Origin: Halorussus halophilus
GTDB lineage: Archaea > Halobacteriota > Halobacteria > Halobacteriales > Haladaptataceae
Reading direction: 5' to 3'
DNA length: 64,000 bases
Assembly (NCBI RefSeq): GCF_008831545.1
Contig: NZ_CP044524.1
Span: 372,001 to 436,000, forward strand
The position numbers and the translations under genes are program-made. Positions 19,150 to 49,400 of the stretch are shown here, one piece after another; within the stretch, counting starts at the first letter, position 1; each line of letters starts with the position of its first letter. The notes beneath the pieces were generated by a model. That model saw nothing but the letters and a program-made list of their open reading frames with translations, searched no databases and had not been told where the DNA came from.

Positions 19150-20088
19150 ATGACACGCGAGTCCGAACGCGAGTCGGAATCTGACCGCAGGGGAAAGTCT
19201 CACTCCAAGTCAGATTCTCCCTCGTCGGCGTCCGGAACGACCGTCTACGACGAACTCGTTCGGACTGCGCACGAACTCCGCCCAGACGAGGACGTCCCAC
19301 TCGACCACGACCGTGACCGACTCGACACGAGTTACCTGCTCGAAGTGGTTCGGCACGGCCCGGTCCTCGAAGCACTGCTGGGCGAACCGCTCGACAGGCG
19401 CGAAATTGAGGACCGACTCGGCGTCTCGCGGGCGACCAGCCACCGTCTCACCCGCTGGCTCGACGACCACGAACTGGTCGAGAAGCGAGAGTCTCGACTC
19501 CACCTCACGGGCAAGGGTCAGACGCTGGCCGAGAGCGTTCTCCGATTCGAACAGACCGTCGCCACAGCAGACCGCCTCGCGCCGTTGCTCGACCTCATCT
19601 GCGACGACCATCAGGACCTCGTGGTCGAACCGTTCGCAGACGCCACCGTCACGGTCGCCTCGCCCGACGACCCGTATCGACCGATTCGGCGGTTCCGGTC
19701 GCTAGTCGAGGAGTCGGAGACGTTTCGCGGGTTCAACACCACCCACGTTGTGCCGCTGACGATGGGGGAGTTCTTCGAAGCCCTCTTCGAGAGCACCGAA
19801 ACGGAGGTCATCTACCGCCCGGCCGTCGTGGAGACGCTGTTCGAGTCGTTCCCCGAGCGCGCCCGAACCGCGGTCGAACGCGGCCAGTTCCGGGTCCGGA
19901 CGCGCGAGGCACTCCCCTACTGTCTCGTGCTGTTCGACGACTGCGTCGGCATCGGCGGCTACGACGAGACGACTGGGGCGATGGAGGTGTTCGTGGACAC
20001 CGACGCGGCTTACGCCCGCGAGTGGGCCGAGCGCACGTACGAGACGTATCGTGCCCACTCGGACCCGTTGGACGCCGAAGGTGTCTAA
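19150..20088 (+). CDS. Haloarchaeal HTH transcriptional regulator (COG4742 type)
   Basis: A 312-residue regulator. After an acidic Ser-rich N-terminus, residues about 55-130 form a winged helix (EALLGEPLDRREIEDRLGVSRATSHRLTRWL, given here as its key helices DRREIEDRLGV and SRATSHRL). The rest is the effector-like C-terminal domain seen in this haloarchaeal family (EVIYRPAVVETLFESF, VLFDDCVGIGGYDE). ATG 19150 is chosen over the GTG at 19129. It is divergent from the methyltransferase at 17905 and likely regulates it. A second member of the same family is encoded at 48037. Confidence 0.82.
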   Translation: MTRESERESESDRRGKSHSKSDSPSSASGTTVYDELVRTAHELRPDEDVPLDHDRDRLDTSYLLEVVRHGPVLEALLGEPLDRREIEDRLGVSRATSHRLTRWLDDHELVEKRESRLHLTGKGQTLAESVLRFEQTVATADRLAPLLDLICDDHQDLVVEPFADATVTVASPDDPYRPIRRFRSLVEESETFRGFNTTHVVPLTMGEFFEALFESTETEVIYRPAVVETLFESFPERARTAVERGQFRVRTREALPYCLVLFDDCVGIGGYDETTGAMEVFVDTDAAYAREWAERTYETYRAHSDPLDAEGV

Positions 20089-42940: not shown

Positions 42941-43085
42941 TTATTGTATCGGCTGTAACTCCGCGCTGAAGTGGCGCAACTCGGCCATCTCCGGCTCTTG
43001 GACGATTTCGAGTCCCGTTATCTCGCCAGCGTCGCGGGAGCGTGAGTCAAATCGGTGTGACCACCTTCGGCTTGTCTGCTCGATA
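42941..43085 (-). pseudogene. Collapsed tryptophanase remnant (5' and 3' ends only)
   Basis: The first half (42941 to about 43040) matches the last 33 codons of the intact tryptophanase at 44933 (TGLEIV-EPEM-ELRHFSAELQP), at roughly 80% of bases. The next part (about 43049-43085) matches the first 12 codons of the same gene (KxKVVTPI) in a different frame, and its start codon is lost. So about 1.2 kb between both ends is missing. It is a fossil second copy of tnaA in the same orientation as the intact copy, which lies 1.85 kb away beyond the low-GC gene pair. Confidence 0.8.
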
Positions 43086-44932: not shown

Positions 44933-46288
44933 CTAGTTAACCGGCTGTAGCTCCGCGCTGAAGTGCCGAAGCTCTTTCATCTCCGGTTCTTCGACTATTT
45001 CTAGCCCAGTAGTCTCGCCAGCGTCACGGCGCTCGGCGACCGATTCGAACGTCTCGGCGACGTGTTCGAGGTGGTCCGTGCCGTAGGTTCGGCGCGGGAG
45101 CGCCAGTCGGACGAGTTCCGGCCGGTCGGTGTCGGGGAACGCGAAGCTACCGAGTTCGACGCCGCGAACTGCGCCCTCCCGGTAGAGTTCACAGACCAGC
45201 ACCTGTCCAGGGAACTGCTCGGCCGGAATGTCTGGGAAGAACGCGTCTGCATCGACGTAGATAGCGTGGCCGCCCGTGGGAAGGTGAACCGGCACGTCGC
45301 GCTCGGCGAGTAGTTCCCCGAGTTGCTGGACCTGGCCGACCCGGTCCGCGACGTAGGCCTCCTCGACTGACTCACGCAGACCGACCGCCATCGCTTCGAT
45401 GTCGCGGCCCGACATGCCGCCGTAGGTGGTGAACCCTTCGTAGAGGATGCCGCGCTGGCGTACCCCCTCGTAGAGGCCATCGAGCGCTCCGTCGTCACTG
45501 ATGCCAACGAACCCGCCGATGTTGACCAGTCCGTCTTTCTTGCCGCTCATGATGATGGCGTCGGCCTCGGCGAGTTGTTCGCGGGCGATGTCAGCCACGG
45601 AGTGGTCGGCGAACTCGTCTTCGCGCTCCTTAACGAAGTAGGCGTTCTCCGCAAAGCGACAGGCGTCGATGACGAAGTGAGCGTCGAGGTCGTCGGCGAC
45701 CTCGCGGGCCGCACGCAGGTTCTCGATGCTCACTGGTTGGCCCGCCAGCGAGTTGTTCGTGATAGTCACGAGAACAGCGGGAACGTTCTCCGCGCCGACT
45801 TCGTCCGCGAGGTCCCGAACCTTCTCCACGTCGAGGTTACCGGCGAATTGCTGGTCGCTCGACAGTGCGCCCTCTATCGGACAATCCACAGGTTCTGCGC
45901 CAGCGTTGGCGATGTGAGCGCGCGTCGTGTCGAAGTGGGTGTTGTTCGGCACGTAGTCGCCCTCCGAGACGAGTGCGCCGTAGAGGACGTTCTCGGCACC
46001 GCGACCCTGATGTGCGGGGACGATTCGTTCGAAGCCCATCACGTCCGAGACGGCCGATTGCAGGCGTTCGAAACTCGAACTGCCAGCGTACGCTTCGTCG
46101 CCACGCATCATGGCTGCCCACTGCTCGTCGCTCATGGTGCCGGTGCCGCTGTCGGTCAGTAAATCGACGTACACCGAGTCGGAGTCTAGATTGAAGACGT
46201 TGTAGCCCGCGGTTTCGAGGTTCGCCGTCCGCTCGTCGCGGTCGGGGAGGCGAATCGGGGTGACCACCTTCGACTTGTACGCTCGCAT
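44933..46288 (-). CDS. tnaA: Tryptophanase / tyrosine phenol-lyase family
   Basis: A 451-residue PLP-dependent beta-eliminating lyase (tryptophan to indole, pyruvate and ammonia). Marker regions: MTDSGT-type start LTDSGTGTMSDEQWAAMM, VPAHQGRGAENVLY, ITNNSLAGQPVS, the PLP Lys in IIMSGKKDGLVN, and EGFTTYGGMSGRDIEAMAVGL. Length fits TnaA/TPL. ATG 46288 begins RAYKSKVVTPIR; the extra codons to 46393 are not coding. A TATA-like atatatt lies about 27 bases upstream (46310-46316). A collapsed second copy is found at 42941-43085. Trp versus Tyr preference is not fixed from sequence alone. Confidence 0.88.
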   Translation of the reverse strand: MRAYKSKVVTPIRLPDRDERTANLETAGYNVFNLDSDSVYVDLLTDSGTGTMSDEQWAAMMRGDEAYAGSSSFERLQSAVSDVMGFERIVPAHQGRGAENVLYGALVSEGDYVPNNTHFDTTRAHIANAGAEPVDCPIEGALSSDQQFAGNLDVEKVRDLADEVGAENVPAVLVTITNNSLAGQPVSIENLRAAREVADDLDAHFVIDACRFAENAYFVKEREDEFADHSVADIAREQLAEADAIIMSGKKDGLVNIGGFVGISDDGALDGLYEGVRQRGILYEGFTTYGGMSGRDIEAMAVGLRESVEEAYVADRVGQVQQLGELLAERDVPVHLPTGGHAIYVDADAFFPDIPAEQFPGQVLVCELYREGAVRGVELGSFAFPDTDRPELVRLALPRRTYGTDHLEHVAETFESVAERRDAGETTGLEIVEEPEMKELRHFSAELQPVN

Positions 46289-46307
46289 GTCCGTGGAGTC
46301 GCCGACC

Positions 46308-46318
46308 GGAGATATATT
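46308..46318 (-). promoter_or_regulatory. TATA-like element of tnaA
   Basis: On the minus strand taatatatctc lies 20-30 bases before the tnaA start codon, as in leaderless haloarchaeal promoters. Confidence 0.45.
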
Positions 46319-46522
46319 ACTGGCGTGATGTATCCGTCCATCGATGGTCTGTTTCGGTACGTGGAACCCGACTCTGTCCGTCGGCGGATACAATCACAGT
46401 TCTCTCCCCGCCCGCAACGAAAGCTATTATTTGATGCTTTTCCCGGGGTAAAGTTTAGAATTATTAGTTGTCAGTCAACGCCCGGTAGTATTATAGAACT
46501 GCTCACGCTGTCATTTGGTATC

Positions 46523-46906
46523 ATGTCGGACGACGCTTCGAACGCAGACGACAATTGCAGGCCGTCCTTCGACCGAGAGACGTTCGACGCTTCGCGATTC
46601 TCGGACTCGGATTTGCTCGTGCGTCTCGCGAACCGGCGCTGTCGGTACGTCGTCGAGTACTTCACAGACTCCTCGGTCCGAGTGGCGGACATCGACGCAC
46701 TGGTGGACGAGGTCATCCTCCGGGAAGAGAGCGAGAGTACGCCGACACAACGCAGACACGTCGCCATCTCGTTACATCACAATCACCTACCGAAACTGGC
46801 CGACATGGGTGTCGTGTCGTACGACGCCCGCTCTCGAACCGTCAGATACCGAGACGACCACCGCATCGAGAGCTACGTATCCCTATACGACGAGTTAGAT
46901 TTGTAA
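46523..46906 (+). CDS. DUF7344-type winged-helix regulator
   Basis: A 127-residue protein of the haloarchaeal DUF7344 family, often described as winged-helix DNA-binding. Core: FSDSDLLVRLANRRCRYVVEYFTDSS, then VEVILREESES-like helix, and HVAISLHHNHLPKLADMGVVSYDARSRTV, the recognition helix and wing. The gene is divergent from tnaA (235 bases), so it could regulate tnaA. Preceded by gtattatagaac, a TATA-like site. Starts ATG 46523. Confidence 0.72.
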   Translation: MSDDASNADDNCRPSFDRETFDASRFSDSDLLVRLANRRCRYVVEYFTDSSVRVADIDALVDEVILREESESTPTQRRHVAISLHHNHLPKLADMGVVSYDARSRTVRYRDDHRIESYVSLYDELDL

Positions 46907-47023: not shown

Positions 47024-48040
47024 GTGGCACGGTTCGACGACTCCCCCGACTCCTTCGAGGCCGTTCGAGGGATCGAGAACGACGACGAGCGGATAGAGCG
47101 CGTCGAGCGCTGCGAACTACCGAACGGCGTCCGGACGCTCGTCGAGGAGTACGAGGAGACGGTCGGGGAACGTGACCGGTTTCTCTGGCAGTGGCTCTAC
47201 TTCATGTTCCCGGCTGTCACGCTTTCCTGTGTCGATTCGACGTTCGAGGAGCGAGTTCGCGACCAGAAACTACTCGCCTCGCTGTTCGTCGTCCTGCTGG
47301 ACGACCTCGGTGAGCGACAGATGGACCGGCCGACCTTCGAAGAGGCGTCGAAGATTCCGTCGCCACATCAGCGTTGCCGACCGGAGCGGGAGGCGGTCAA
47401 CGAGGAGTACGTCGCGTTCGCCGAGCGGGTGTGGGAGGCGTTCGAAGAGCAACTAGCTACCGCACCGCGCTACAGCGACTTCGAGTCGATATTCGAGTTC
47501 GACGTGAAGCAGAACCTCAACGCCATCGACTACTCGTACACGGTGAACCAACACCTCGAAATGGCGACGCTCGACGAGGTTACGACCTACGATTGCCACA
47601 ACATGATGCTGTTCACGTACGTCAACATCGACCTCATGCACTCGCCGTCGTTCGACCGGGGAGAACTGGCGTCGCTTCGACAGGTCGTTTCGCGGGCCCA
47701 ACGAATGGCGCGCGTCGGCAACTGGGTCACGACGTGGGAACGAGAACTCCGAGAAGGTGACTACAGTTCCGGCGTCGTCGTGTACGCGCTCGAAAACGAC
47801 ATCGTCGATAGAGAAGAACTCTACAAACTGAGCGCCGGTCGATTCGGACCAGGGTGTGACGAACTCGTCGAACGGATACAGAACCGTGGCGTCGAAGAGA
47901 TGTTCCTCGACGAGTGGCATCAGAACCACGAGGAGATAGAACAGATACAGAGCCAGTTGACGTCTGTGGACGTCGATTCGTTCCTCTCGGGGATGGAGAA
48001 ACTGCTCTCGTACCACCTTGCAAGCCGAGGTTTGAAATGA
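47024..48040 (+). CDS. Putative class I terpene-synthase-fold protein
   Basis: A 338-residue all-helical protein. Two metal-binding motifs of class I terpene cyclases appear at expected places: LLDDLGERQ (Asp93, Asp94, Glu97; DDxxE type) and VGNWVTTWERELREGD with Asn233, Thr237 and Glu241 (NSE/DTE spacing N-x3-S/T-x3-E). The latter is followed by the typical acidic GD and VVVYALEND, and the distance between motifs (about 140 residues) also fits. Cyclisation of a prenyl diphosphate to a terpene would follow. Homology is inferred by motif only. GTG start at 47024, 27 bases after a TATA-like ccaataagg. It overlaps the following HTH gene by 4 bases. Confidence 0.6.
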   Translation: MARFDDSPDSFEAVRGIENDDERIERVERCELPNGVRTLVEEYEETVGERDRFLWQWLYFMFPAVTLSCVDSTFEERVRDQKLLASLFVVLLDDLGERQMDRPTFEEASKIPSPHQRCRPEREAVNEEYVAFAERVWEAFEEQLATAPRYSDFESIFEFDVKQNLNAIDYSYTVNQHLEMATLDEVTTYDCHNMMLFTYVNIDLMHSPSFDRGELASLRQVVSRAQRMARVGNWVTTWERELREGDYSSGVVVYALENDIVDREELYKLSAGRFGPGCDELVERIQNRGVEEMFLDEWHQNHEEIEQIQSQLTSVDVDSFLSGMEKLLSYHLASRGLK

Positions 48041-48837
48041 ACCGACCAAGAGAACAATCGGGAACCGACTCTCGCTCGATCGACGACCTACTGGTTGACG
48101 CCGTGAAACGCGCCGAACTGTTCGACACGCTCAAACAGGGCCGACACGAAACGCCGGAGTTGGTCGATTCGCTCAACATGTCTCGTTCGACGGTCCACCG
48201 AACGACTCGTTCGTTCAGCGAAAAAGGACTCCTCGAAGAGACGGACGATGGGTACGAACTGACCGAGTTCGGTCACTCGGTCGCCGACGCAGTCGAGGCG
48301 TTCCGGACTGAGGTCTCGACGGCGTACGACCTCGAAACGTTTCTGAACATCGCGGAGCCGACTGCGGTGGACGTTCCGTTGCCTGCGTTCGAGGACGCGA
48401 CTGTCACCCATCCGAAACCCCGCCAGCCACACTTCGCGGTCAAGCGCATCATCGAACTCATCGAGTCGTCCGAATCGGTGCGACTGTTTTCGAGTATCAT
48501 CTCTCCATTTTACGTCGATGTCGCCCACCGGGAGATGCTAAACGGAACGGAAATCGAAGTCATCTTCGAATACGACGTCGTCGATATCATCGCGTCAGAG
48601 TACACCGCCAAAGCGACCGAAGCTGCCGAGACTGGACTGTTCGAAGTCCGCGTCCGCGACGACCTTCCGTTCGAGCTGTTCATTTTCGACGACCGGATCG
48701 GCATGGCGGCACACGACGAGCAGGGAATCGCCCGGGTGTTCGTCGAATCCGAGTGCCCGAAGGCCGTCACGTGGGCCGAGGACGTGTACGAACAGTTCAA
48801 ATCTGACGCCGACGAGGTCTCGATGGCGCAGTATTGA
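48037..48837 (+). CDS. Haloarchaeal HTH transcriptional regulator (COG4742 type), coupled to the terpene-synthase-like gene
   Basis: A 266-residue regulator. The N-terminal winged helix (residues 25-85) is LFDTLKQGRHETPELVDSL and SRSTVHRTTRSF with GLLEETDDGYEL. The C-terminal domain (about 100-260) is the family's sensor-like part (VRLFSSIISPFYVDVAH, LFIFDDRIGMAAHDEQG). ATG 48037 overlaps the stop of the upstream gene (ATGA), so both are co-translated. It is related to the regulator at 19150. It probably senses a signal linked to the product of the upstream gene. Confidence 0.82.
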   Translation: MNRPREQSGTDSRSIDDLLVDAVKRAELFDTLKQGRHETPELVDSLNMSRSTVHRTTRSFSEKGLLEETDDGYELTEFGHSVADAVEAFRTEVSTAYDLETFLNIAEPTAVDVPLPAFEDATVTHPKPRQPHFAVKRIIELIESSESVRLFSSIISPFYVDVAHREMLNGTEIEVIFEYDVVDIIASEYTAKATEAAETGLFEVRVRDDLPFELFIFDDRIGMAAHDEQGIARVFVESECPKAVTWAEDVYEQFKSDADEVSMAQY

Positions 48838-49094: not shown

Positions 49095-49400
49095 ATGCTA
49101 GACACCAACCGACTCGTTGACGACCGAGACTTCATGACCGAACCCCATCACGTTCGGTACGACCCGACGGACAGCACCAACATCACCGAATCGATTGCGA
49201 TTGCAATCGCAGAACTCGAAGGCGTTCATCCCCTAGAGTTGGACCCCCTCTACGGTGCGGTCAACCCCGAATCGTTGGAAAAGTTCGTCGCTCACGGTGG
49301 GTCCGACGAGTTCGGCGGGGAGATGTCTCTCACGTTCGAAGGCTACTCAGTGACGGTACACGCGAGTGGCCTCGTCGAAATAGAACGGATCGACGTGTAG
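49095..49400 (+). CDS. HalOD1 output-domain protein
   Basis: A 101-residue single HalOD1 domain. Core features: ITESIAIAIAELEGVHPLELDPLYGAVNPESLEKFV and EMSLTFEGYSVTVHASGLVEI. HalOD1 proteins are typical haloarchaeal outputs thought to act downstream of signalling modules; many are stand-alone. The N-terminal 25 residues are acidic and not part of the domain. Preceded by aaggaaacc before ATG 49095. Molecular partner unknown. Confidence 0.82.
   Translation: MLDTNRLVDDRDFMTEPHHVRYDPTDSTNITESIAIAIAELEGVHPLELDPLYGAVNPESLEKFVAHGGSDEFGGEMSLTFEGYSVTVHASGLVEIERIDV

Follow-up and report, generated by a model that had tools for sequence, protein, structure and literature searches.

The window analyzed here, the whole 64,000-nucleotide stretch of Halorussus halophilus DNA, appears to hold a real, conserved terpene-synthase operon that includes its own regulator. 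Specifically, the best explanation, and one that we consider quite likely, is a small regulated operon in which genes for a DUF7344 protein and a class I terpene synthase are followed by one for a regulator with TrmB architecture (Table 1). Archaea live on isoprenoids, and to our knowledge class I terpene cyclases outside the lipid and carotenoid pathways have hardly been described in them. A family whose catalytic residues hardly vary across haloarchaea and some methanogen-side families makes terpene production by archaea, and its purpose, directly testable, and the conserved operon, with a TrmB-like regulator of its own, provides a genetic handle on the product.

Table 1. Features of the predicted terpene-synthase operon, in window positions.
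Feature	Position	Strand	Details
DUF7344 protein, first gene of the unit	46523..46906	+	127 aa; Pfam PF24035 E 9e-20
Class I terpene synthase-like enzyme	47024..48040	+	338 aa, GTG start
Metal motif 1, D93 D94 L G E97	47300..47314	+	end of helix 72-98
R230 and metal motif 2, N233-x3-T237-x3-E241	47711..47746	+	end of helix 212-243
ATGA stop/start overlap, synthase TGA with regulator ATG	48037..48040	+	predicted translational coupling
Regulator, winged HTH and TrmB-type PLD-like sensor domain	48037..48837	+	266 aa
HalOD1 domain protein, possible fourth member	49095..49400	+	101 aa; PF18545 E 9e-18

The preliminary description of this DNA had reported a 338-residue open reading frame with the two metal motifs of a class I terpene cyclase, and all of the positions it gave were recovered. 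LLDDLGE supplies Asp93, Asp94, and Glu97 and conforms to the Asp-rich motif DDxx(D/E), while NWVTTWERE supplies Asn233, Thr237, and Glu241 and conforms to the NSE/DTE triad (N/D)xxx(S/T)xxxE. The motifs are 140 residues apart and, in the AlphaFold model, each closes a long helix; helix ends are the expected location of metal motifs in class I cyclases. Taken alone, the pair is only suggestive, and weak evidence for a terpene synthase, because DDxx[DE] with Nxxx[ST]xxxE 125-155 residues further on arose in 0.27% of shuffles of the same protein and was also present in four of 431 other open reading frames of similar size. Counted against the terpene-synthase reading were the form of the second motif, NWxxT, with Trp where the usual NDxxS has a second Asp, and the finding that no conserved Arg was seen among the relatives about 46 residues before N233. 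Bacterial synthases carry their diphosphate-sensor Arg at about this distance before the Asn of the second motif. We assume that R230 may stand in for that residue, as in plant synthases; among the 118 relatives it was present in every one of the 106 that are not methanogen-side and in half of the remaining 12.

What decides that the motifs are real is the conservation of the metal ligands, rather than the motif pair alone. Across 118 synthase relatives, spanning down to about 25-30% identity, D94 and N233 were kept in every sequence, D93 in 115, and an acidic residue at position 97 in 117; T237 and E241 were missing only from one or two rows, which had a gap or variant there. Homologues lacking both metal motifs, a possibility raised beforehand, were therefore not what the alignment contained. 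Additionally, a comparison of the gene with that of its nearest relative (70% identical) gave a frequency of third-position differences of 0.445, as against 0.19 and 0.18 at positions 1 and 2. This more than twofold excess points to purifying selection, as would be the case for functional enzymes.

The assignment of the synthase rests on its fold, motifs, and relatives, because NCBIfam gave no match for the protein and sequence searches of the PDB, both with the single sequence and with a profile, returned nothing significant. The AlphaFold model, built from the alignment of relatives, reached a pLDDT of 90.8 and a pTM of 0.90 and had the alpha-helical class I isoprenoid fold. Foldseek matched it to class I isoprenoid enzymes, with E down to 1.8e-4. 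In the VIA comparison with the PDB each of the best 50 entries was a terpenoid cyclase or synthase (Z 20-22), aligned at an rmsd of about 3-4 Å across 260-290 residues, and the top matches included bornyl-PP, taxadiene, aristolochene, and bacterial synthases. The enzyme class and barrel-type fold that had been put forward from the sequence are supported, in that the modelled fold is that of class I terpenoid cyclases and both metal motifs are present.

The profile PF19086 (Terpene_syn_C_2), to which the protein had been provisionally linked, gave a divided result. It was matched by 19 of 25 aligned relatives at E <= 1 (best 1.7e-7), whereas the window protein alone scored 16.6 bits (E 0.0068), below the gathering cut-off of 23.7 bits; the synthase is therefore class I by fold and motifs but is not counted among the PF19086 members. 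Five of the same 25 relatives matched PF03936, and none matched a polyprenyl-synthase or squalene/phytoene-synthase profile. With the PF19086 synthases Sat1646, hydropyrene synthase, and T-muurolol synthase the window protein has in common the fold, the metal motifs, their spacing, and their placement at helix ends. It differs from these in being archaeal, in having NWxxT instead of NDxxS, in its identity of 9-16%, and in falling under the Pfam cut-off.

Archaeal terpene cyclases had been presumed to be few, a view that does not hold for this family. Among 84,980 species representatives scanned, at least 115 synthase-family loci were found, almost all with haloarchaeal titles. Of 393 genomes surveyed in the phylum, 38 carried a member, and some of these belong to families other than those of the haloarchaeal order. 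Among 99 relatives of the window genome, 28 had a synthase match and some had two or three copies. The family is thus widespread but patchy. In loci L012, L013, L035, and L083/L146 the synthase genes have internal stops or a frameshift, and these are perhaps decaying copies, or perhaps reflect sequencing error in a MAG. The member on L103, a contig titled as a Lysobacteraceae bacterium (MAG), grouped with Methanohalobium, and this contig is probably misbinned.

The overlap of the synthase stop with the regulator ATG, part of the preliminary description, was confirmed; its two-gene operon was too short. The unit comprises at least three genes, with the overlooked DUF7344 gene first, and often four, the last being a HalOD1 gene that in the window starts 257 bp downstream of the regulator. 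The order DUF7344-synthase-regulator was found in six genomes, namely that of the window and those of loci L110, L111, L112, L113, and L146. The ATGA overlap is present in five of these, and in L110 the regulator ATG lies one base after the synthase stop. A second overlap, of the DUF7344 stop with the start codon ATG of the synthase, occurs in L111 and L112. A HalOD1 gene identified by Pfam follows the regulator in the window and in L111, and related small genes are found in L113 and L146. In a tree of 105 relatives the six module-bearing synthases did not form one clade, with three changes of the module, two of them forced by starred branches; several branches were long and this placement is unsure. 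The six best matches of the regulator across the 99 genomes were exactly the six that adjoin a synthase, and the next best was a paralogue in the same genome (42% identity) that is not beside a synthase. Since gene order, overlap, and this pairing recur, the module would be difficult to account for if synthase and regulator were not functionally linked, consistent with the proposal that the regulator is made together with the enzyme. A second paralogue of the regulator, with 32% identity, lies in the window at 19345-20085 (+), with no synthase match adjoining it.

The designation of the operon as a secondary-metabolite unit fared less well. The operon holds neither a tailoring enzyme nor a prenyl synthase, its immediate neighbours are regulators, and none of the cytochrome P450s listed in our survey was near the synthase of the window genome; by gene content, the locus is not a biosynthetic cluster. 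A search for inverted repeats found no operator-like one upstream of the operon, which counts against the proposed explanation. Precursor genes are located elsewhere in the genome and comprise two polyprenyl synthases and two genes of squalene/phytoene-synthase type, with the prenyl synthases lying on contig C1.

Divergent from the operon lies a tryptophanase-type gene (window 44933-46393, -; NCBIfam PRK13238, E 1e-188), and among the module genomes the same divergent arrangement (80% identity) was found only in L110. The tryptophanase was considered as a part of the unit and dropped, the divergent gene being confined to the window and L110. Two kilobases away, the stretch at 42944-43036 (-) encodes 31 residues that are 84% identical to the tryptophanase C-terminus and is apparently a decayed partial copy.

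The regulator was assigned by Pfam to HVO_A0261_N (5e-21) and FilR1_middle (2e-31), and its model (pLDDT 92.9) shows a PLD-like domain together with a winged helix and a linker helix. The Foldseek list was headed by TrmBL2 (E 2.5e-14), and VIA aligned the TrmB sugar-binding domain over 132 residues at Z 15.1 and an rmsd of 2.6, such that both parts of the TrmB architecture, the winged helix and the PLD-like sensor domain, were recovered. The sequence lacks the HKD nuclease motif. With a winged helix, a TrmB-like PLD domain, and no HKD motif, the protein has the appearance of a repressor or activator that responds to a ligand. It differs from TrmB and TrmBL2, with which it shares the winged helix and PLD-like ligand domain, in having 11-16% identity to them, in being filed by Pfam with HVO_A0261/FilR1, and in its pairing with a terpene synthase. 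FilR1 of Methanosaeta harundinacea likewise combines a FilR1_middle domain with a DNA-binding N-terminal part, and carries in addition a receiver domain and has a cognate kinase (PMC3991700). In contrast, a Pfam scan matched no receiver domain in the 266-residue window protein, which is therefore not a response regulator of the FilR1 kind.

Under the preferred explanation, the three genes would be read from a single transcript. The synthase would most likely bind three Mg2+ through D93/D94/E97 and N233/T237/E241, ionize an all-trans prenyl diphosphate, FPP or GGPP, and quench the resulting carbocation to give a terpene hydrocarbon or alcohol. Because the genome encodes polyprenyl and squalene/phytoene-synthase-type enzymes, FPP or GGPP should be available in the cell, where they would serve squalene, carotenoids, and membrane lipids. 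The regulator would be translated off the synthase message by way of the stop/start overlap, so that its level would follow the enzyme level. A small ligand, be it the terpene or its precursor or a signal of stress, probably binds to the PLD-like domain, and the regulator probably controls the promoter of its own operon. That a synthase gene from a family spread over many haloarchaea and some methanogens shares an operon with its own DNA-binding regulator suggests that archaea carrying the family make terpenes under tight control.

We weighed these predictions against other readings of the same genes. The synthase could be genuine and the regulator a mere neighbour that controls, for example, the divergent tryptophanase, with the overlap reflecting genome compaction; such a gene does lie upstream in the window and in L110, and most synthase loci are without this regulator. 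However, the pair recurs in six genomes, four of them lacking the tryptophanase, the same overlap recurs with it, and the closest relatives of the regulator are exactly those adjoining a synthase, so that we regard this reading as unlikely. A regulator linked to its synthase, as preferred here, leaves the reaction itself to be considered, since a class I fold might serve for prenyl transfer or for hemiterpene (isoprene) synthesis. Substrates cannot be separated by sequence, and the Foldseek matches included FPP synthases and a Pyrobaculum isoprenoid synthase. Still, all relatives have as their second motif an NSE/DTE one, the cyclase type, instead of a second DDxxD, the only profiles matched by the 25 relatives were those of terpene synthases, and terpenoid cyclases fill the best 50 places of the VIA list, though one is an isoprene synthase. 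We therefore consider a different reaction quite improbable. The retention of all metal ligands in nearly every relative, which a mere binder would hardly need, also makes it very improbable that the protein is a synthase-like prenyl-diphosphate sensor without catalysis that serves the surrounding regulators, even though the genes adjoining the family are often those of sensors and regulators and not of tailoring enzymes.

Beyond the terpene-synthase operon, this adjacency extends to other branches of the family, and the neighbours differ by branch, being TrmB-like, DUF7344, Bat, HalOD1, or histidine-kinase genes. In an HMM survey of 94 loci on six-frame translations, in which raw counts were taken and kinship of the loci was ignored, 51 had a regulator or sensor of one of six kinds no more than 1.5 kb from the synthase. 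Bat-type (bacterioopsin activator) PAS/GAF/BAT/HTH_10 proteins, which adjoin many other members of the family, gave 58 matches within 3 kb of a synthase as compared to 10 farther out, and the regulator family gave seven near synthases, all within 2 kb. The counts of an earlier neighbourhood survey are lower bounds, as its simple gene caller missed the synthase open reading frame in about 12 loci. The window operon has no Bat-type regulator and instead has the DUF7344 protein and the TrmB-like regulator. Furthermore, a PAS histidine kinase is encoded directly upstream of a distant synthase relative, on the same strand, in L151, L152, L153, L154, and L155; these belong to one methanogen-side family, and the kinase was identified in L154 and assigned in the others by clustering. 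A broader proposal would be that class I terpene synthases of a large clade in archaea are connected to sensory proteins and not to tailoring enzymes; the unmodified terpene would then serve haloarchaea and methanogens as a signal or against stress, and the co-translated regulator would be its receptor. We offer this tentatively, and think it rather unlikely as it stands.

The enzyme class is not new to archaea, to judge from the title of a preprint by Samusevich et al. (bioRxiv 2024.01.29.577750; cited in PMC12797696), which already claims terpenoid biosynthesis in archaea; the likeness of that work to the window synthase extends to what the title conveys. The suggestion that the operon represents a new type of unit accordingly falls for the kind of enzyme taken alone. 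For the regulated operon it may hold, in that a literature search, covering sources other than bioRxiv preprints, found no published description of such an operon or of a repeated synthase-sensor pairing. Overall, what had been observed in the sequence was confirmed, and its interpretation was partly supported.

Finally, only one locus resembled a classical cluster. L119 (G002:C1:3295000-3314500), from the same genus, has a P450 between two divergent synthases and looks like a terpenoid gene cluster. The two synthases also flank two related proteins of 180-205 aa, of which the one scanned had no Pfam match, and a small protein similar to these adjoins the synthase in L121. In L117 and L118, also of the same genus, a gene for a KaiC-type ATPase is convergent with that of the synthase, next to PEP carboxylase.
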